Origin: Oceanospirillaceae bacterium | GTDB taxonomy: Bacteria > Pseudomonadota > Gammaproteobacteria > Pseudomonadales > Balneatricaceae | Direction of reading: 5' to 3' | NCBI GenBank assembly: GCA_013215505.1 | Contig: JABSQZ010000028.1 | Coordinates: 1 to 64,000 of the forward strand | Length of the DNA: 64,000 bases | Shown: piece after piece, positions 13,508-63,703 of the stretch | Position numbering within the stretch: the stretch's first letter is position 1 | Layout of the letters: every line of letters starts with the position of its first letter | Notes under the pieces: model-generated | Told to the model about the DNA's origin: nothing | The model's input: only the letters and a program-made list of their open reading frames with translations | The model's database searches: none | Translations under genes and position numbers: made by a program

Positions 13508-13824
13508 TACGGCGGCTACACGAAATCCGCCATAATAACCGGCTCAGCTTATGAAAATACGCTGTAGTGGCAGAAACACGATTAGAGATAATAAACAGTC
13601 ACTTATCCTGGATATACTGACGGGATTAACTCTCAGGGAAGAATAGCTCTATGCGTGTGACCTATAAGCTGTGCCTGGGGTGATATTTTATGTCTTGCAT
13701 TGAATATAGATCGCATTTAAAAAAAAGCAAAAATTTGCACAGCTTTGATCGAATGCCAGTTCGCCCTTAATAATTAGCCTGCATGGCCTGCCAATTGTAA
13801 ATAGTGAGTGCTTTAGAGAATAGC
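13508..13824. other. Intergenic region upstream of the first GGDEF-EAL unit
   Basis: It separates the GGDEF-EAL gene (minus) from the end of the LysR gene (minus). The only structure I can name is the short inverted repeat GGCGG/CCGCC (13511-13531) directly ahead of the ATG at 13507. A run of eight A near 13720 and general AT-richness suit a promoter, but no site is clear and no ORF is convincing. Confidence 0.5.
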
Positions 13825-16570: not shown

Positions 16571-17500
16571 ATGGACCATATTGACGCAATGCTCGGCCCG
16601 CACATTCAGGTCATTGATCAACAATTTGCCAAACTCTGCATCCCGAACACACAACTAGAGCATTTGTGGGGTGACGGGCGCTGGACCGAGGGACCGGTAT
16701 ATTTTGCCGATGCCGGTCAGTTACTTTTTTCCGACATTCCCAACAATCGCATGCTGCGCTTTGATGAGCGCACGGCGCAGTGCAGTATCTGGAATCCCAG
16801 CTGCGATAACAGCAACGGTAATACCAGAGACAGGCAGGGGCGGCTGGTTTCCTGCCGGCATTTAAGCCGATCGGTGATTCGCATTGAATACGACGGCAGT
16901 ACTACGGTGCTGGCCAGTCATTATCAGGGCAAACGCTTAAACTCACCCAATGATGTGGTGGTCTCTGGGGACGGTGCTGTCTGGTTTAGTGATCCCAGCT
17001 ACGGCATCGACAGCAATTATGAAGGCATACAGGCAGAATCTGAAATCGGCGCTTGCCACCTTTACCGTATCTGCCCTGATTCGGCTGAGTTAACCGCAGT
17101 GGCTACCGATTTAGTACAGCCAAATGGTCTGGCATTTTCAGCGGATGAGCAATATTTGTATGTCAGTGATACCGGTGCCAGCCATTTGGACAATGGCCCC
17201 AGGCACATTCGAAAATTTTCTGTGCAGCAATCAAAACTAGTATCCAGTGAAATTTTTTCAGTCTGCCAGCAGGGTCTGTACGATGGCTTTCGCCTGGATA
17301 GCAGCGGAAACTTATGGTGCAGTGCCGCAGATGGAGTGCATTGTCTCAACTCCGCTGGCAAGCTCATCGGTAAAATACGCATTCCCGAGACGGTATCCAA
17401 CCTCTGCTTTGGGGGTATACACCGCAACCGACTCTATATCACCGCTTCTACTTCCTTGTATTCACTGTACTTATCAACCACCGGGTTAAGCTATTTCTGA
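16571..17500 (+). CDS. SMP-30/gluconolactonase-family sugar lactonase
   Basis: Hydrolyses an aldonolactone to the free acid, here expected D-xylono-lactone to D-xylonate (step 2). The six-bladed SMP-30 propeller is recognisable by WTEGPVYFADAGQLLFSDIPNNRMLRFD at the start (metal Glu in EGP), LNSPNDVVVSGDGAVWFSDPSYG in the middle (Asn and Asp ligands) and QPNGLAFSADEQYLYVSDT and DGFRLDSSGNLW later. The 309 aa are normal for the family, with no signal peptide, so it is cytoplasmic. It lies 110 bp after the dehydrogenase and before xylD. Specificity for xylonolactone is from context. Confidence 0.9.
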   Translation: MDHIDAMLGPHIQVIDQQFAKLCIPNTQLEHLWGDGRWTEGPVYFADAGQLLFSDIPNNRMLRFDERTAQCSIWNPSCDNSNGNTRDRQGRLVSCRHLSRSVIRIEYDGSTTVLASHYQGKRLNSPNDVVVSGDGAVWFSDPSYGIDSNYEGIQAESEIGACHLYRICPDSAELTAVATDLVQPNGLAFSADEQYLYVSDTGASHLDNGPRHIRKFSVQQSKLVSSEIFSVCQQGLYDGFRLDSSGNLWCSAADGVHCLNSAGKLIGKIRIPETVSNLCFGGIHRNRLYITASTSLYSLYLSTTGLSYF

Positions 17501-17870
17501 TGGCCCCCAGCTGCGCAATTTGCTGGGCAGTGCTGTTTCGGGCCGGCGATTTTCAAGCGCCCAGTAGTGCTGACAGACAGCAGAGAGTAATGACCAGTCC
17601 TTGCCAAGTTGCCATAGCTGTTATGTTTTATGCTTTAGTCTTTACTAAATATCACAGAATAATCATTAGTAAATTTATTCTGTTTTAATAACTCTGCAGT
17701 TTAAAATGGCGGCGATTAATGCGTATCAACCGCAACTAATGACTCTTTTACGGCACTCATTAACAGTGCTGATGCTTTTTATCGCTGAGATTATTTGGGT
17801 TTCTTTTTTTAAACTGCCTAAAAAGGACAACAATACTGAGAAATCTAAGCGCTGCATATTAGGATCAACC
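17501..17870. other. Intergenic region ahead of xylD
   Basis: Holds a candidate operator (17641-17673) and the presumed xylD promoter. An open frame continuous with xylD runs from 17706 to 17870, but its translation is hydrophobic and unlike any dehydratase N-terminus, so I treat it as untranslated leader. No separate gene is seen. Confidence 0.55.
17641..17673. promoter_or_regulatory. Inverted repeat TTTACTAA/TTAGTAAA upstream of xylD (candidate XylR site)
   Basis: TTTACTAA (17641-17648) and its exact inverse TTAGTAAA (17666-17673) flank a 17-bp spacer. The ten-base form TTTACTAAAT is repeated at 21356-21365 in front of xylX. Sharing between two pathway promoters makes a common regulator site plausible, the XylR-like protein being the obvious candidate. 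AT-rich chance similarity cannot be excluded. Confidence 0.45.
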
Positions 17871-19664
17871 ATGAATAAAAATAGAAAATTACGTTCCCAA
17901 GCTTGGTTCAACAATCCCGACAATCCCGGAATGACCGCTTTATACATTGAGCGCTATCTTAACTTTGGTCTCACCCGTGAAGAGCTGCAGTCTGGCAAGC
18001 CGATTATCGGTATCGCCCAGACAGGTTCTGACTTGTCCCCCTGCAATCGCCACCACATAGAACTGGCCAAGCGAGTACGCGACGGTATTATTACCGCCGG
18101 CGGTATCCCTATGGAATTCCCGGTGCACCCGATACAGGAAACCGGCAAGAGACCGACAGCCACCTTAGACCGTAACTTAGCCTATTTAGGCCTGGTCGAA
18201 CTGCTGTATGGCTATCCCCTGGATGGGGTGGTGCTGATGATAGGTTGTGACAAGACCACCCCCGCCTGCCTGATGGCAGCGGCCACTGTCGACATCCCGG
18301 CAATTGCGCTTTCTGTAGGGCCCATGTTGAATGGCTGGCACAAAGGTAAGCGCACCGGTTCCGGGACTATTATCTGGGAGGCGCGCGAGCAACTGGCCAC
18401 CAATGAAATAGACTATGAAGAGTTTATGCAAATCACCACTAGCTCAGCACCCTCTGTGGGCTTTTGTAATACTATGGGCACCGCTTCAACCATGAATGCC
18501 CTGAGTGAGGCTCTGGGCATGCAACTTCCAGGCTCAGCTGCAGTGCCTGCCCCCTATCGCGAGCGTGGCCAGTACTCCTACCGCACAGGCCTGCGCATTG
18601 TCGACATGGTCTGGGAGGACTTAAAGCCTTCAGACATTATGACCCGGGCCGCCTTTGAAAACGCTATAGTCGCCAACTCGGCTCTAGGTGGCTCCACTAA
18701 CGCTCCCATCCATCTGAATGCGATCGCCCGCCATCTGGGGGTAGAGCTCAGCAATGACGACTGGCAAGAGTTTGGCCATAAAATCCCACTGCTAGTCAAC
18801 ATGCAACCCGCCGGTAAATACTTAGGCGAGGATTTTCACCGCGCTGGCGGCGTACCGGCAGTCATCGCCGAACTGCTTAAAGAGCAATTATTACCTAACC
18901 CGGGTGCAATCTGTGTGACCGGAAAGAGCATTCATGATGAAAACTACAGCGCCGAAAATTATAATCAGAAAGTGATTAAAAGTGTGGCACAGCCGCTGAA
19001 AGCACAGGCCGGCTTCATTAACTTATCCGGTAATTTATTTGACAGCGCCATCATGAAAACCTCGGTTATTTCCGATCAATTTCGAGGGCGCTACTTATCG
19101 AATCCCGACGACCTGAATGCCTTCGAGGGCAGAGCGATAGTCTTTGAAGGACCTGAGGATTACCACCAGCGCCTGGATGACCCAGCGCTTGAGATCGACC
19201 AGAACTGTATTTTAGTGATCCGCGGCGCCGGCCCTATCGGCTACCCGGGAGGCGCTGAAGTGGTCAATATGCAGCCACCAGCCGCCCTGTTAAAGCAGGG
19301 TATCCGTGAGCTGCCGTGCATCGGCGATGGCCGTCAGTCCGGCACTTCGGGCTCACCGTCAATTCTTAACGCAGCTCCGGAGGCCGCGGCTATGGGTGGC
19401 TTGGCACTGATCAAAACCGGGGATATGGTTCGTATTGATCTCAACACTGGCAGCGCCAATATGTTGGTCTCAGCAGCAGAGCTGTCGCAGCGGCGCACTG
19501 AGCTAGAAAAACGCGGCGGTTTTCCCTTCCCCGAGCATCAAACGCCCTGGCAGGAAATTCAGCGCTCTATGACCGATCAGTTTGATCTTGGCATGACCTT
19601 AAAACCGGCGGTGAAATATCAACGAATCGCCACCGATAAAGGGATTCCCAGAGATAACCATTAA
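17871..19664 (+). CDS. xylD: D-xylonate dehydratase (IlvD/Edd family)
   Basis: Dehydrates D-xylonate to 2-keto-3-deoxy-xylonate. The protein closely resembles Caulobacter XylD as I recall it, throughout its 597 aa: [17 protein letters not shown] at the start, [41 protein letters not shown], and [20 protein letters not shown] near the end. Cys58, Cys126 and Cys199 match the three [2Fe-2S] ligands of the sugar-acid dehydratases. The ATG at 17871 has AGGA 10 bp upstream and is preferred to the in-frame start at 17706. L-arabinonate is an alternative substrate. A degenerate copy of its last 30 codons lies just downstream (see the tandem duplication). Confidence 0.93.
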
Positions 19665-19744
19665 TCTTAGTCACTCTCGTTTAGTCATAAACAACAAAGT
19701 CATTCAGAGGTAATAAAATGCCTCTATAAATGACCGATCAGTGG
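19565..19744. repeat. Tandem duplication copy 1 (xylD 3' end plus relic thioesterase tail)
   Basis: This unit is followed directly by a second copy, 180 bp away. It contains the functional end of xylD (to 19664), about 40 bp of non-coding sequence (from TAGTCACTCTCG, 19668 on) identical in both copies, and a broken minus-strand tail of the thioesterase gene (19701-19744). That tail reads HFITSE before its stop but holds an internal stop. A hairpin AGAGG...CCTCT spans 19706-19725. Confidence 0.85.
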
Positions 19745-19925
19745 CTCTATGACTGATCAATTCAATCTGGGTACCATCTTGAAGCCAGCGCTGAAATATC
19801 AATGTATCTCCGCCAAAAAAGGGGCTTTTCAGAGCTAACCACTAATTTTAGTCACTCTCGTTTAGTCATAAACAACAAAGTCATTCAGGGGTAATAAAAT
19901 GCCCCTGCAGTTTATCGATCAGTGA
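19745..19925. repeat. Tandem duplication copy 2 (relic xylD tail plus real thioesterase 3' end)
   Basis: The left part translates in the xylD sense as SMTDQFNLGTILKPALKYQ then a stop, clearly a drifted copy of the xylD C-terminus [19 protein letters not shown]. The same non-coding core follows, then the true 3' end of the thioesterase gene (stop at 19881). The hairpin is AGGGG...CCCCT (19887-19906): both arms differ from copy 1 so that pairing is kept. One extra base in copy 2 shifts the second half by 181 bp. Confidence 0.85.
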
Positions 19926-20279
19926 GGCGCTCAGTGCTACACTTTTTTTCTGTTGGTGACAAAAATGTACCATAGTCGCAGTACCACTGACGGTCTTTAT
20001 CCCCTGTTGCCAGCACTGTTGATAAACATCAAAAGAGCTCTTACCGATGCGGCTGATGCTGGTTGTTATTTCCACTTCAAAGCCGTAGTGGGTCTCCGCA
20101 TGAAAACTCAGATTAAATCCCGCCAGAATTAGCTTCCAATTGTTAACATCCATATCCGGGGAAAAGATCTTGAACACTGGATCCCGGGAAGCTTCAAACC
20201 ACATTGGCAACACAGTGTTATTAATATGACCTAAAGCATCGGTTTCAAGAAAGCGAGGGCTGATGGTATTGGTGAACAT
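19881..20279 (-). CDS. Hotdog-fold acyl-CoA thioesterase (FcbC/YbgC-like)
   Basis: The 132-aa protein begins with the 4-hydroxybenzoyl-CoA-thioesterase-type motif RFLETDALGHINNTVLPMWFE; the Asp in ETDALGH is the catalytic residue of this family. It should hydrolyse an acyl-CoA in the cytosol. It is convergent with xylD and lies downstream of the xylose dehydrogenase gene on the same strand (183-bp gap). No thioester takes part in the Weimberg route, so its presence in the locus is unexplained. Its last codons are part of the 180-bp tandem duplication. Confidence 0.85.
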   Translation of the reverse strand: MFTNTISPRFLETDALGHINNTVLPMWFEASRDPVFKIFSPDMDVNNWKLILAGFNLSFHAETHYGFEVEITTSISRIGKSSFDVYQQCWQQGIKTVSGTATMVHFCHQQKKSVALSASLIDKLQGHFITPE

Positions 20280-20462
20280 CTACTACTCCAATAAGACAAA
20301 TACAATCAAGCGCACATACTACTCATTGACTCAGGGCAAATTGAATAGTTAGGGCGAATTTCCTCTGAGTGTAACGCTGCAACTGAAATATTCAATAGTA
20401 CTTTGGTGCCTGTCGTGAACCACAGGTACTTGTTTAAGTGTGTTTTCAGTAAAAAACTGAAG

Positions 20463-21224
20463 TTAAATGATCCCCCCATCAACTATAAACTCTTGTGCAG
20501 TACAGGCCGATGAACTCTCTGAAGCCAAAAACAGCGCCATATTGGCTATATCAGCTCCGACAATGCGTCGTTTTAAACACTGTTGCTGTTGAATTTGTGC
20601 TTCATCTTCGGCTGAAATCCACAATTTCAATTGTTTTTCTGTCATCACACAACCCGGCACTAAAGTATTCACCCGAATGTTATCCGCCCCCCACTCCCTG
20701 GCTAAAGAACGGGTTAAACCTACCACTGCGGCTTTACAAGTCGCATAGGCAGTCAAATCTGGCAGCGACATACGGTAGCTAACGGAACCTAAATTAATGA
20801 TAGATCCGCACTTTTGCTCACGCATATACTGATGTACAGCCTGGGCACAGAAAAACTGCTGGCCCAAATTCACATCCAGGCGGTTGTGCCAATATTCTGG
20901 GGTCAGATCCTCCGGGGTATGCCTATTGTCACTGGCGGCATTGTTCACCAACACAGTAAATGCGCCACAGCTTTCGCTCAGCTTATCAATCACCCCTCTT
21001 ATAGCCCCTAATTCTGCTAGATCACAGTAGCTAAAAACTGGAACACTGCCCCCGGCATCGACGAGTTCAGCTATTAACTGTTGCGCTGCCTTAGCATCAA
21101 TATCGATAAAGGCTACCCTTGCCCGCTGCTGACAGAAAGCTCTGACTATGTCTGCGCCAATCCCTGAGGCCCCACCTGTGATTAATACACTGCTATCTTT
21201 TAAGTCTGGGTATTGTGCCGCCAT
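20463..21224 (-). CDS. xylB: D-xylose 1-dehydrogenase (SDR family, XylB-like)
   Basis: First step of the pathway: D-xylose + NAD(P)+ to D-xylono-lactone. A classical 253-aa short-chain dehydrogenase: TGGASGIG cofactor loop (residues 16-23), NNAAS at 94, and the active site Ser147, Tyr160, Lys164 (YATCK). Asp41 after the second strand (FIDID) favours NAD+. Segments such as DNRH, CLKRRIV and ASESSSACTAQEFIVDGG recall Caulobacter XylB. It is divergent from xylX across a 266-bp shared regulatory region. Strictly, family plus context define the substrate; L-arabinose remains possible. Confidence 0.87.
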   Translation of the reverse strand: MAAQYPDLKDSSVLITGGASGIGADIVRAFCQQRARVAFIDIDAKAAQQLIAELVDAGGSVPVFSYCDLAELGAIRGVIDKLSESCGAFTVLVNNAASDNRHTPEDLTPEYWHNRLDVNLGQQFFCAQAVHQYMREQKCGSIINLGSVSYRMSLPDLTAYATCKAAVVGLTRSLAREWGADNIRVNTLVPGCVMTEKQLKLWISAEDEAQIQQQQCLKRRIVGADIANMALFLASESSSACTAQEFIVDGGII

Positions 21225-50810: not shown

Positions 50811-51127
50811 GTGACCCCTGAGTGGCAATCACTGCGTGCTGAAAAATCTCAGAATCCACAATACCGTGATTTTTCCTGAAACGTTGCCGCTCATTTCTAC
50901 GATAAATGTCACCTCGCAATATAGCTCTACATATCAGCTGCCCTTGCATATTCATAAAAACCAACATGCTTGGCTTGACCTAACTCACGCCTCACAACTT
51001 ACGACTTACGACTTACGACTCACAACTGTACCCCTATCTGTTTCAAAATTTGTATCTGTTATATTTTTTTTGACCAAGCTAAGATAATCGGCATCAACCC
51101 ACTGCCAAAAACCAAAAAGAGAGCAGC
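50811..51127. other. Intergenic region with heptamer array
   Basis: Contains a weak inverted repeat (AAAAATC...GATTTTT near 50842-50876) just after the GFA gene and the heptanucleotide array at 50982-51023. No ORF is convincing. The rest should include the promoter of the decarboxylase. Confidence 0.5.
50982..51023. repeat. Heptanucleotide tandem array, consensus RACTYAC, six units
   Basis: Units in order: AACTCAC, GCCTCAC, AACTTAC, GACTTAC, GACTTAC, GACTCAC. Period is strictly seven. Similar arrays occur at 53199-53219 and, on the other strand, at 63618-63645. Confidence 0.85.
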
Positions 51128-53102: not shown

Positions 53103-53198
53103 TTTCACCTTCTTATATTGATAATGGCTGTGGATAAGAAATGAGTGTAAATGCCATATAGGTCACAATGAGCCCTATTAAAAAATGAATTTTCTAAT

Positions 53199-53219
53199 AA
53201 CTGATAACTGATAACTGAT
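53199..53219. repeat. Heptanucleotide array, AACTGAT x3
   Basis: Three exact copies of AACTGAT between the DUF1579-like gene and the end of the LysR gene. Unit begins with ACT after a purine, like those at 50982 and 63618. Confidence 0.85.
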
Positions 53220-53257
53220 AGTCGCTTAATAGCTGACAGTAATATCCCTGACAGTGT

Positions 53258-58106: not shown

Positions 58107-58181
58107 TCAGAAGTTTTATCATATAGAAGAATCGAGCAGATGAAAAACTTAAAGCTGTGACTTGAAACTAACCACTGTTTT

Positions 58182-58229
58182 GGCTCATGGCTGTTCTGGT
58201 TCATGGCTGTTCTGGCTCATGGCTGTTCT
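58182..58229. repeat. 16-bp tandem repeat, three units, across the end of the response-regulator/kinase gene
   Basis: GGCTCATGGCTGTTCT repeats at 58182, 58198 (one mismatch, GGTTCATGG...) and 58214. The stop codon of the minus-strand kinase (58201-58203) lies in the middle unit, so the repeat encodes the last residues (QNSHEPEQP). Unit length is not a multiple of three. Confidence 0.85.
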
Positions 58230-59385
58230 GGCTGGCCGGCAGTTGCCCGAAACTTATGGTAAATTTTGTGCCTGTCCCATGAGTACTTTCAAGCTCTATT
58301 TGCCCTTGCATTTCCTGTTCAATCAGTTCTTTGCAGATGGTTAAACCTAAACCTGACCCGCCTTCACCCGCTTTAGTCGTGTAATACTTTTTGAATGCCA
58401 TCTGCCGTTGTTCGCTACTCATCCCCAGCCCATCATCGGTATAAACCAAGGTAATCAGATGTTTTTCTTCTTTGGCGGCAATTTCAATGTTTCCTGTGCG
58501 CTCTTGATTAAAAGCGTGCAGTAAAGAATTATTAACCAAATTAATAATCACTTGTGATAAGGCCCCCGGATTATTAATGACAGATATTTTTTCATCTATC
58601 AACACAGTGACAGTGTGTGGATGCTTCTTTAATTTTGGTCTCAAAGTTAACAAAATATCCTCTATATACTCTGCCAGATTAAATTCAATAATTTTATTAC
58701 TGCACTGATTAACAGCAACTTGTTTAAAGCTAGCCATTAAATCAGTGGCTCTTTTGGCATTGGCATGGCACATATTGGCGGCTTCAGTTAACTTAGCTAA
58801 GTATTGTTCAAAGCCTTGCTTATCTAATTTATGCTCAGCACTTGCCTGCTTTATTTTTGCTGTTTTCTGCAGGATATAATCCATAGTCAACATCAAATTC
58901 CCCATCGGTGAGGCAACTTCATGGGCAATCCCCGCCACCATATTTCCCAGTTCAGCCATTTTGTTAGATTTTTCTAACAACTCTCGTTTCAATTGCATTT
59001 GTGATGTTATAGATAATTGATTTTTGACTCTGGCCAAAATAATATCTTGCTGTACCGGTTTAGTAATGTAGTCCGCGGCTCCTACAGCAAAACCTTTACG
59101 CAAATCTTCAGGTTCAATTTTTGCCGTGACAAAAATAACCGGAATATGTTCGCTCTGGCTGGACTGTTTCAGGGCAGTGCAAGTTTGATAGCCATCCATC
59201 CCCGGCATCATAATATCCAGCAGAATCAGGTCGACCTGAATTTTTGCCACTACCTTTAGGGCCTTTTCACCACTAGTGACCGCAGAAATAGAGTAATCTT
59301 CCCCTTCAAGGTATCGGCGTAACAAGTCGATATTGACGGGATTGTCATCGACAATCAAAATTGAGGCTTTTTTATTGACTGTCAT
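58201..59385 (-). CDS. REC-HisKA-HATPase sensor kinase
   Basis: 394 aa from ATG 59385, overlapping the upstream kinase gene by 14 bp. N-terminal receiver (ILIVDDNPVNIDLL, phospho-Asp in LILLDIMMPGMDG, Lys in YITKPV), then HisKA (MVAGIAHEVASPMGNLMLT, His in AHE) and HATPase (NLVNNSLLHAF, DDGLGMS, GSGLGLT). No membrane segment: a soluble kinase driven by its own receiver, probably phosphorylated by the membrane kinase encoded just upstream. No output regulator is encoded nearby. The C-terminus lies in a 16-bp tandem repeat. Confidence 0.92.
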   Translation of the reverse strand: MTVNKKASILIVDDNPVNIDLLRRYLEGEDYSISAVTSGEKALKVVAKIQVDLILLDIMMPGMDGYQTCTALKQSSQSEHIPVIFVTAKIEPEDLRKGFAVGAADYITKPVQQDIILARVKNQLSITSQMQLKRELLEKSNKMAELGNMVAGIAHEVASPMGNLMLTMDYILQKTAKIKQASAEHKLDKQGFEQYLAKLTEAANMCHANAKRATDLMASFKQVAVNQCSNKIIEFNLAEYIEDILLTLRPKLKKHPHTVTVLIDEKISVINNPGALSQVIINLVNNSLLHAFNQERTGNIEIAAKEEKHLITLVYTDDGLGMSSEQRQMAFKKYYTTKAGEGGSGLGLTICKELIEQEMQGQIELESTHGTGTKFTISFGQLPASQNSHEPEQP

Positions 59386-61621
59386 CAGTTTCACTGCTGA
59401 CAAAATCAATTAGCCCTTCCAGGTCATAACTATCGACAAAGTGTTGTAATTTAACGAAGAACTTCTCATTGCCAGGGTATTGTTTAAGCAGTTCCGCCAG
59501 TAAATGCTCAACTTCACTCACTCGGTATAATTCGCATTGTTGTACCAGTAACGCTATTTGCTCTGGTTCTAACTTGAAACTGCTTGGCTCAGTGGTGAGT
59601 TTCACTCCCTCTGCTTGGTTTAAACCTGCTTGCAGGTAATCAAATTTGACCTTTAGAATATCGGCCAATAATTGATAGATATCTTCAAACTGGAAAGGCT
59701 TGGATATATAGTTGGCAAAACCTTTATCCAGGTAATATTGTGGATCATTGTTAATACTCGAAGCGCTGATAGCAACTACGGGTATGAACGAGTAACGTAC
59801 ATTCATTTTTTGCAGAAAACTTTCGCCATCCATTATCGGCATCATTAAGTCTGTGAAAACCAAGTCAAATTGATCATGAGCCATAATCTCTAATGCTTCC
59901 TGACCATTATTGGCTTCAACGACCTCAAAGCCGACCTCTGTTAGCATCCTCTGCAAGATTGTGCGGTTAATGGCAATGTCATCCACCACTAGAATACGTT
60001 TACTGTAACCTGCCCGCAGTTTTTCTATGTGTAATTTAGACTTTGTTGGTAAGGTTGTTTCCACTACTGGTAATAATAAATCAAAATAAAAATTTGCTCC
60101 TTGATTGAGTGCGGATTCAAGCTTGAGCTCGCTACCCATCATTTTTAGATACTTCTTTGAGATCGTCAGCCCTAAACCTGTGCCGCCAAATTCTAAAGAG
60201 ACATTTCCCTGATTAAACGCATCAAACACCGCGCTTTGATGGGATTTTTCAATACCTATACCGGTGTCAGTGATGCTGAAAGAAAACACATTGTCACGAC
60301 TACAGCTCAAGGTGAATTTCACTTCTCCCTGATCGGTAAACTTAATAGCGTTGCCTACCAGGTTAATTAATACCTGACGGATTTTTCCCTGATCACCCGA
60401 GACCACCATTACTGCACTGGCAAAATCTGTATTAATTTTCCAGCTAATACCCTTCTGCTGTGCTTTAAGTGAGAACATATCACTCAAGGTGTTACACAAC
60501 TCAACCAGGTCAAAGGGCTCAAGAACAATTTGACTGGCACCTGCTTCAATTTTCGATAAATCCAGTACATCGTCTATTAAACCCAGTAGATGATCGCCAG
60601 ATTTGCCGACGATAGAGAGTGATTTTTGTTGGTCCTGATTCATCTTCTGATCGCGTTGCAGGATCTGCGTATAACCCAAAATAGCGTTCATTGGCGTTCT
60701 TATTTCATGAGAGATATTGGCTAAGAAAACAGATTTTGCTTTATCCGCCGCAACAGCGTCTTCCCTGGCTAAATCTGCCTGCTCTTTGGCCAGCAAGGCA
60801 TTATTTTTACTCGCGGATAATTCCCGCTCCACTAACTTACGTACATCAATTTCACTGCCAAGCTGGTTAATCAGTCCATCGAGCGTGTTATTATTCCTCT
60901 TTAAAGTGGTTACAGTGACAGCAAAACCCGCCATGCCCACCAGTAACAAACTGCTGATCATAATCACCATTTGCACAAAAATAGTATTTACTTGAGCTAT
61001 CCCTTGAGTAAAAGGCTCGATAACTTCCAACACCCCACGCACATCCCCGGCTTGCCAGCCGGTTTTGGGGGTATCCGGATGATTATTATGACAATTAACA
61101 CAAGTTGGCCGCATCACATCGGCAATCGCATAGCGGACACTTAACTTACCATCTACCTCTTCAACACGCACAAAGGGCTGTAGTGGTGTTTCTTGTAGTT
61201 GCAGCCAGGCCTCTTTTTCAAAACTACCTGCTAAGCCACCACTGTCTTTACGCCAGGGAAATGGAAAGGCACTGTAGAGCCTGACTTGAACATCCAATCC
61301 TTGCAGCCCCATTCTTTCACCGAGTAGCAAGCTCAAAGTAGCGGGCAGCGGTATGGCATTATGTTTCTCTTTGTAATCATGACTAATTTCTATTCCCGCC
61401 GCCGCCATAGTCGCCACTACTTCCGAGCTATATAAAGTACGAAATTCACTTAATACCTGGGCATACTGACGGGTACTCTGGATAGTCGTGGACTTTATTA
61501 GTTGAGTATTGAGCTTTTTAATTTGTATGAAGATGATGCTTGAGCCGATAATAAATACCAATGCTAATATGGTCAGCGGATGTTTTTCCCACATTCTTGC
61601 TATCCAGCTTTTTGCTTTCAC
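59372..61621 (-). CDS. Hybrid sensor kinase with periplasmic heme-type DUF3365/Tll0287 domain
   Basis: 749 aa, GTG start. TM1 (about 15-35); periplasmic domain (40-205) of DUF3365/Tll0287 type with a c-type heme motif CVNCH (173-177) after RPT; TM2 (about 208-237); coiled linker; HisKA (FLANISHEIRTPMNAILGYTQIL); HATPase (NLVGNAIKF, DTGIGIE, GTGLGLT); receiver (ILVVDDIAINRTIL, Asp in LVFTDLMMP, Lys in YISKPF); and a short C-terminal region. A periplasmic heme suggests sensing of redox or a diatomic gas. Translationally coupled to the soluble kinase at 58201. Confidence 0.92.
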   Translation of the reverse strand: MKAKSWIARMWEKHPLTILALVFIIGSSIIFIQIKKLNTQLIKSTTIQSTRQYAQVLSEFRTLYSSEVVATMAAAGIEISHDYKEKHNAIPLPATLSLLLGERMGLQGLDVQVRLYSAFPFPWRKDSGGLAGSFEKEAWLQLQETPLQPFVRVEEVDGKLSVRYAIADVMRPTCVNCHNNHPDTPKTGWQAGDVRGVLEVIEPFTQGIAQVNTIFVQMVIMISSLLLVGMAGFAVTVTTLKRNNNTLDGLINQLGSEIDVRKLVERELSASKNNALLAKEQADLAREDAVAADKAKSVFLANISHEIRTPMNAILGYTQILQRDQKMNQDQQKSLSIVGKSGDHLLGLIDDVLDLSKIEAGASQIVLEPFDLVELCNTLSDMFSLKAQQKGISWKINTDFASAVMVVSGDQGKIRQVLINLVGNAIKFTDQGEVKFTLSCSRDNVFSFSITDTGIGIEKSHQSAVFDAFNQGNVSLEFGGTGLGLTISKKYLKMMGSELKLESALNQGANFYFDLLLPVVETTLPTKSKLHIEKLRAGYSKRILVVDDIAINRTILQRMLTEVGFEVVEANNGQEALEIMAHDQFDLVFTDLMMPIMDGESFLQKMNVRYSFIPVVAISASSINNDPQYYLDKGFANYISKPFQFEDIYQLLADILKVKFDYLQAGLNQAEGVKLTTEPSSFKLEPEQIALLVQQCELYRVSEVEHLLAELLKQYPGNEKFFVKLQHFVDSYDLEGLIDFVSSETDDSQ

Positions 61622-62825: not shown

Positions 62826-63617
62826 ATGAGCAGACCACTACCGCGAAAATTGATAGTGCTTAACAAACAAAAGGTGAGCGGCAACATGTTACGTATCACT
62901 TTGGGTGGCGATGCATTGGAGGATTTTCCTCTGGATCAGGAGAGTGGTTATATAAAACTGCATTTTGCCAGAGAAGATGTTTTAGGGGGCGATATAGAAC
63001 AACAACTGCGCAGCGACGACGCGAAAGCACGGCCGATGCTACGCACTTATACAGTACGCCAGCAACGTCAGAACCCCTGTGAAATTGATGTTGATTTTGT
63101 GGTACATGAAGGGGGCCCCGCCTCCGACTGGGCAATCCACTGTAACCCGGGAGAGCAAATATACGTAGCGGGACCCGGTAAAAAGAAATTGATCAATTTA
63201 GCAGCGGATTGGTTTTTTATTGCCGGTGACATGACCGCCCTACCGGCGATTAGTGTCAACCTGGCACTGTTACCCGCAGACGCACGTGGCTACGCGGTGA
63301 TCGAAGTGTTGGAAGAAGCCGATATTCAACCGCTGCCAGTACCCGAAAATTTCGAACTCTACTGGGTTATCAACAACCACAAACAGGGCACTAACTTGTT
63401 ATTAGATGCAGTTACAGCACTACCCGTACTAGCGGGTGCCCCCTCGGTTTGGCTTGCCTGCGAATTCACATCGATGCGCGCCCTGCGTCAGTATTTTCAT
63501 TCTGACTTGCAGATCAAACGCCGTAATGTTTACGCCAGTAGCTATTGGAAGCACGGATTAACTGAAGAAGAGCATAAGTTACTGAAGAGCGCAGATACAC
63601 AGAAAGAGTTGGATTAA
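62826..63617 (+). CDS. Siderophore-interacting flavoprotein (ViuB/SIP family)
   Basis: 263 aa. FAD-binding motif RTYTVRQQ (about 77) and VDFVVHEGGPASDWA are the SIP-family hallmarks; FIAGDMTALPAISVNL and WLACEFTSMRALRQYF form the NAD(P)-binding half. It reduces Fe(III)-siderophores in the cytosol to free iron. Follows the FbpA relic by 28 bp, suggesting the locus once carried an iron-uptake operon. AGGGAAACAAC precedes the ATG. Confidence 0.93.
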   Translation: MSRPLPRKLIVLNKQKVSGNMLRITLGGDALEDFPLDQESGYIKLHFAREDVLGGDIEQQLRSDDAKARPMLRTYTVRQQRQNPCEIDVDFVVHEGGPASDWAIHCNPGEQIYVAGPGKKKLINLAADWFFIAGDMTALPAISVNLALLPADARGYAVIEVLEEADIQPLPVPENFELYWVINNHKQGTNLLLDAVTALPVLAGAPSVWLACEFTSMRALRQYFHSDLQIKRRNVYASSYWKHGLTEEEHKLLKSADTQKELD

Positions 63618-63645
63618 GTCGGAAGTCGGAAGTCGGAAGTCGGAA
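63618..63645. repeat. Heptanucleotide array, GTCGGAA x4 (GACTTCC on the minus strand)
   Basis: Four exact 7-bp units begin at the base after the SIP stop codon. The minus-strand unit GACTTCC differs by one base from the GACTTAC unit at 50982-51023. Confidence 0.9.
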
Positions 63646-63703
63646 GTTTATAAGGGTGCTAAAAATCGAAATTTAATGCACTACTATTTTAAAAATTGCC
63701 GAG

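Follow-up and report, generated by a model that had tools for sequence, protein, structure and literature searches.

The results showed that a segment of about 180 bp, spanning the 3' ends of two convergent genes, is present as two adjacent direct copies in the 64,000-nt stretch of Oceanospirillaceae DNA analysed here (the window), and that this tandem duplication is real and of ordinary origin. Each gene keeps one intact tail, in the outer position, the inner tails have decayed, and the spacer between the genes is far more alike in the two copies than the tails are. We consider it somewhat probable (about 0.6 for the account as a whole) that a single-copy ancestor underwent the duplication, that the inner tails then decayed and that the spacer was later exchanged between the copies. 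The locus is a clear natural example of a harmless tandem duplication across convergent gene ends, with one intact tail left to each gene, and its inner tails provide an internal clock of decay against which the identity of the spacers reads as exchange or selection. The duplication is a genome scar of a known sort, the spacer identity together with a rebuilt hairpin being the one detail that is mildly unexplained.

Geometry of the duplication and the genes it spans

The genes, the copies and the longest identical block between the copies have the following coordinates.

17706..19664, plus strand: ORF of an IlvD/Edd-family dehydratase, named xylD in the initial annotation (Pfam PF00920 and PF24877; NF009560 over residues 56-652)
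19881..20279, minus strand: ORF of a 4HBT_2-type thioesterase-like protein (PF13279)
19564..19743, no strand: copy 1 of the tandem duplication, 180 bp
19744..19924, no strand: copy 2 of the tandem duplication, 181 bp, with one additional base in a G run
19667..19707, no strand: 41-bp identical block in copy 1, from the alignment of the copies
19848..19888, no strand: counterpart of that block in copy 2, at an offset of 181

The initial annotation had described a tandem duplication of about 180 bp over the ends of two convergent genes, and self-alignment and Tandem Repeats Finder bore this out at 19564-19924. The Tandem Repeats Finder row (19564-19903, period 181, 1.9 copies, score 489) is one of seven with a score of at least 40 in the window, and the other six have periods of 16 or less; the adjacent direct copies match each other above chance by self-BLAST (E = 1.6e-42), and a repeat finder returned the pair as two ungapped families with spacings of 180 and 181. 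The copies are mismatched at 34 of 182 aligned columns, with 24 mismatches in 101 columns and one indel in the xylD tail, 1 in 35 in the spacer and 7 in the final 21 nt of the unit. The longest identical run between them is 41 bp, a length reached in 208 of 100000 shuffles of the mismatch positions, and the claim that about 40 bp are identical base for base thus proved accurate. The description of this block as the spacer is correct for the most part, but the thioesterase stop (19881-19883) and the copy 2 hairpin (19887-19906) lie in or beside it, so that it is not purely non-coding. A dispersed repeat or mobile element was rejected, as the source genome contained no second match to the duplicated segment at E <= 0.001 (one match, the segment itself, with 19 candidates scored).

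The xylD ORF ends at 19664, which places the real xylD 3' end in copy 1, and the minus-strand stop of the thioesterase ORF at 19881 places the real thioesterase 3' end in copy 2. The family match of xylD starts only at residue 56, about 55 codons after the ORF start at 17706 (stretch 17706-17870), and the true start is therefore probably downstream of 17706. The neighbours of xylD, by profile matches, include an aldehyde dehydrogenase, a member of the SMP-30 lactonase family, an FAA-hydrolase-family protein, an aldose epimerase and a XylR-type regulator, together with a D-xylose 1-dehydrogenase-like SDR that scored 320 bits, under the cut-off of 400; this neighbourhood presumably fits a D-xylose oxidation cluster.

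The single-copy relative and the decay of the inner tails

In the search for relatives, 10 of 57 genomes (the source genome included) matched the region, and both the xylD side and the thioesterase side were matched in four of them, namely the source genome, G006, G002 and G005. The two matches are on separate contigs in G002 and G005, and they are adjacent on one contig only in the source genome and in G006, which is the Osedax symbiont Rs2 of the same genus (contig ASZI01000377.1). In Rs2, xylD, the thioesterase gene and the SDR gene have the same order as in the window, xylD and the thioesterase gene are convergent, the thioesterase-like proteins are 80% identical across residues 1-132, and the segment is single-copy, the two halves of the query matching overlapping Rs2 DNA (1-544 to 17006-17548, and 547-1099 to 17372-17922). 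The initial annotation had suggested comparison with related genomes, in which unrelated sequence at this place would count against the duplication; the Rs2 sequence was instead homologous and contained one copy. Among 35 loci with the thioesterase gene (23 with flanks of about 1.5 kb and 12 with flanks up to 6 kb), xylD was nearby in three, which are the window itself and two views of Rs2. Rs2 was the one single-copy relative found with this gene order, and the 57-genome search and the 35 thioesterase loci contained no closer relative with either the one-copy or the two-copy state. The single copy at these convergent genes in a relative of the same genus makes it probable that the duplication is derived, loss of one copy in Rs2 being the formal alternative.

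The spare ends of the two genes are the following.

19744..19845, plus strand: relic xylD 3' end in copy 2, with one indel and derived changes at all codon positions
19700..19743, minus strand: relic thioesterase 3' end in copy 1, with six changes unique to copy 1 against one unique to copy 2

When the xylD tail was polarised by Rs2, G002 and G005, whose xylD tails encode one protein sequence except for a single residue in G002, 17 clear changes were assigned to copy 2, distributed over codon positions 1, 2 and 3 as 8:4:5, and three to copy 1, all at third positions, with four sites ambiguous and one indel set aside. Polarisation with Rs2 alone gave 19 changes unique to copy 2 and five unique to copy 1 in the xylD tail, and the thioesterase-tail counts listed above were obtained in the same way. 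The changes are thus concentrated in the xylD tail of copy 2 and in the thioesterase tail of copy 1, and these inner tails are relics freed from constraint. Both the ORF ends and the polarised changes agree with the earlier assignment of the real xylD end and a relic thioesterase tail to copy 1 and of the reverse arrangement to copy 2, and the accompanying claim that the relic coding parts had drifted was also upheld, the inner tails having changed faster than the outer ones. From the relic branch of 0.17 per site and the xylD dS between the window and Rs2, which is 0.96 (NG86) or 0.75 (YN00), the duplication would lie, very roughly, at a third to a half of the distance back to the divergence of the two lineages.

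Spacer identity, the proposed exchange and the hairpins

The history that we favour would start from an ancestor with a single hairpin, in which the ends of convergent xylD and thioesterase genes faced each other across a short spacer, the arrangement of Rs2 today. After the lineages of the window and Rs2 had split, about 180 bp containing both tails and the spacer would have been duplicated in tandem, perhaps by ordinary slippage or unequal exchange. Such an event damages neither gene, as each retains its tail in the outer position; the inner tails, released from constraint, have decayed. Later, a short tract would have passed from one copy to the other, by a conversion-like exchange or a template switch, leaving the spacer (about 41-58 bp) nearly identical once more.

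The excess identity of the spacer is evident from the comparison of 19665-19722, where the copies differ at 2 of 58 positions, with the rest of the unit, where they differ at 31 of 122 (Fisher p = 1.6e-4), and the tract is flanked by diverged sequence on either side. If both spacer copies were neutral and had drifted at the rate of the relics, 35 nt should have accumulated about 11.8 differences; one was observed (Poisson p = 9.8e-5). Compared with Rs2, copy 1 and copy 2 each differ at 12 of 35 spacer columns, 11 of them common to both, and at all 11 two-against-one sites the two copies agree and Rs2 differs. The longest run of concordant polymorphic sites was 15 of 60, a length reached in 3 of 100000 permutations. 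This pattern would reflect either homogenisation after much divergence or a constraint peculiar to the lineage, and we favour homogenisation. The initial annotation had offered selection on the spacer or recent patchy conversion; the excess identity behind that suggestion is real and conversion fits it better, whereas long-standing selection on the exact letters is disfavoured as the weaker explanation, because 12 of 35 columns differ from Rs2 and because a second duplication in the same genome (L061, below) shows the opposite pattern. Conversion is inferred from the pattern alone, and with one single-copy relative the spacer changes are not datable within the lineage. As to direction, it is likelier that copy 2 overwrote copy 1, since the left edge of the block lies at the real xylD stop and a longer tract, bringing in relic xylD sequence, would damage xylD and be eliminated by selection. 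Weak constraint on the spacer is possible, because 12 of 35 is below the saturated neutral level at a dS near 1 by a Jukes-Cantor estimate.

A stem-loop fold was obtained in copy 1, copy 2 and Rs2, and the hairpin elements of the two copies are as follows.

19706..19725, plus strand: copy 1 hairpin, seven pairs with a 6-nt loop
19699-19704 / 19729-19734, plus strand: copy 1 outer stem, six further pairs, made by four tail changes
19887..19906, minus strand: copy 2 hairpin, inside the thioesterase coding end

These folds bear on the rival view that selection holds the spacer as a 3'-end element (a hairpin, 3' UTR or DNA site) which each gene needs while the inner tails decay, a reading that we take to be possible but rather doubtful. 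On the plus strand, none of 200 shuffles folded as well as copy 1 (z -4.1), copy 2 (z -3.3) or Rs2, as such an element would lead one to expect, but the minus-strand folds were weaker, with 11 of 200 shuffles as good for copy 1 (z -1.95), 2 of 200 for copy 2 (z -2.31) and 0 of 200 for Rs2; the plus/minus MFE of the 49-nt segment was -14.3/-12.9 in copy 1 and -13.2/-10.0 in copy 2. The copy 1 stem was retained through a paired G-C to A-T change at 19708/19723, and the outer stem was gained from former tail sequence. When the same eight changes were placed at random, a fold as stable as that of copy 1 arose in 331 of 20000 plus-strand simulations and in 634 of 20000 for the minus strand, a sign of some selection within the block; a compensated core pair, however, arose by chance in 5089 of 20000 simulations, which weakens that pair as strong evidence; the hairpin changes of copy 1, pair and outer stem together, are suggestive only. 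Selection on a 3' UTR would also predict that the identical block begins within a few bases of the xylD stop, as it does; on the other hand, an exact identity of 41 nt exceeds what the hairpin requires, and the letters have changed relative to Rs2. Nor is the hairpin exceptional for its setting, as the best 50-nt energies of the eight convergent ORF pairs of the window ranged from -12.8 to -28.3 on the plus strand, with -15.4 for the xylD/thioesterase pair, and the stability of this pair's hairpin was matched or exceeded in four of the seven other pairs on the plus strand and in four on the minus strand. A canonical intrinsic terminator was rejected, because no such site or U-rich tract was scored at 19706-19725 or 19887-19906, and so was a known structured RNA, since the Rfam search of 19000-20500 up to E = 1 returned only ncr952 at 20328-20433, away from the duplication and with 20.6 bits against a gathering score of 100.

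Two other explanations bring in the divergence of the copies itself. That they differed from birth, one having come from a diverged strain by recombination and the identical block being where the two sequences happened to agree, would be in line with the third-position differences of the xylD tail (all three in copy 1, the four ambiguous sites and 5 of 17 in copy 2). However, first and second codon positions account for 12 of the 17 clear changes in copy 2, which also contains a frame-breaking indel, both as decay after duplication predicts. Between strains, moreover, a non-coding spacer would be expected to rank with the more divergent parts rather than to be the most alike, and we hold this origin to be improbable. 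A single locus assembled twice is conceivable in an assembly of 52 contigs, but the copies are too diverged for it, differing at about a fifth of their aligned columns with the codon-position pattern of evolutionary change, and we regard an artefact of this kind as extremely unlikely.

A more speculative version, to which we give little credence, is that a shared 3'-end hairpin was duplicated and split, so that copy 1 became a private xylD hairpin rebuilt from decayed thioesterase code (the compensated pair plus the new 6-bp outer stem) and copy 2 stayed with the thioesterase gene, the preserved 41-nt spacer keeping the 3' UTRs of the two mRNAs complementary although overlap of the transcripts would no longer be needed. 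PMC5381666 reports compensatory change in Bacillus cereus terminators and stronger conservation of the bidirectional ones; the likeness here is that a stem-loop lies between convergent genes and has a paired change in its stem of the sort described there, and the difference is that no U-run was scored and that two tandem copies are present in place of one shared stem. A likeness also exists to the excludon and overlapping 3' UTRs of PMC7154746, in that convergent neighbours have potentially complementary 3' UTRs, known here from the DNA alone, with the difference that the complementarity of the outer spacers is a by-product of duplication. On the plus strand, a T-run at 19926-19938 was the sole terminator-like site scored in 19400-20400, where 1.0 is expected by chance; located inside the thioesterase gene, it could serve as a stop for xylD read-through.

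Similar duplications and other repeats

Scars of this kind recur in the source genome. In a sample of 61 stretches (1.264 Mb, window included), 18 close direct repeats were found, nine of which were dropped because they were spaced by more than 25 nt, lay inside one ORF or had no gap context, and the remaining nine are intergenic tandem duplications, the xylD/thioesterase one included. Five of the nine lie in convergent gaps (156 sampled), two in co-directional gaps (558 sampled) and two in divergent gaps (150 sampled). The excess in convergent gaps over the others (5 of 156 compared with 4 of 708) gave p = 0.012 when the window was included; without the window, p was 0.039 by gap count and 0.031 by length. 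This enrichment is fragile, because the genes are mechanical ORFs and one stretch, L087, contains a dispersed repeat. The duplications named individually, apart from that of the window, are listed below.

L061 8538-8839: second duplication between convergent ORFs, on contig C7, spacing 160, 87% identity
L083 18361-18652: further intergenic tandem duplication
L088 13199-13480: further intergenic tandem duplication
L088 17559-17731: further intergenic tandem duplication
L089 3217-3391: further intergenic tandem duplication
L065 9619-9882: further intergenic tandem duplication
L066 4031-4270: further intergenic tandem duplication

The duplications at L061 8538, L083 18361, L088 17559 and L089 3217 resemble the one described here in that their copies, of 87-146 bp and 73-92% identical, have the same orientation, adjoin each other and lie at ORF ends or next to them, and the xylD/thioesterase unit differs from them in holding both convergent gene tails. 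The homologous stretch is shorter by about one unit in relatives for L061 (unit 160; by 137 bp in Rs2 and 179 bp in G003) and for L089 (unit 88; by 125 bp in Rs2 and 108 bp in G003), and part of the L088 17559 unit is matched twice in Rs2 too. In L061 the spacer differs at 17 of 82 positions and the gene tail at 4 of 60, as counted by eye on the alignment, so that the relic tail is the part most alike in L061 and the spacer the part most alike in the xylD/thioesterase duplication; a conserved spacer is no rule, and the idea that spacers are generally kept in such duplications was unsupported. The sample hints that such duplications may be common in this genome, in which case exchange and selection would be separable statistically.

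In 0.4-Mb samples of two genomes of the same family, G012 contained no close direct repeat, and G008 gave four rows, which are two long tandem arrays touching gaps, one spaced pair and one in-gene repeat; the G008 sample is not repeat-free, yet it contains no two-copy intergenic scar of the xylD/thioesterase sort. Earlier reports of such duplications were sought in the literature, with nothing on point among the matches listed, which does not imply absence from print.

Some other repeats were also observed. The dispersed intergenic repeat of about 60-120 bp in L087 (13586-13706) is also found at C24:66025-66101, at the end of the contig that contains the window, as well as in G003 and Rs2; the L087 query had at least 41 matches in the source genome (the query included, with 40 candidates scored), most of them in the 13586-13706 part, and copies at the ends of contigs C9, C24 and C27 may be the cause of the assembly breaks there. 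Within the window, perfect heptamer repeats that differ in unit sequence and comprise 3.4-4.6 units are located at 50997-51020, 53197-53220 and 63616-63647, and a 16-bp repeat in 3.7 copies at 58175-58233 spans the 3' end of the minus-strand ORF at 58201-59409.
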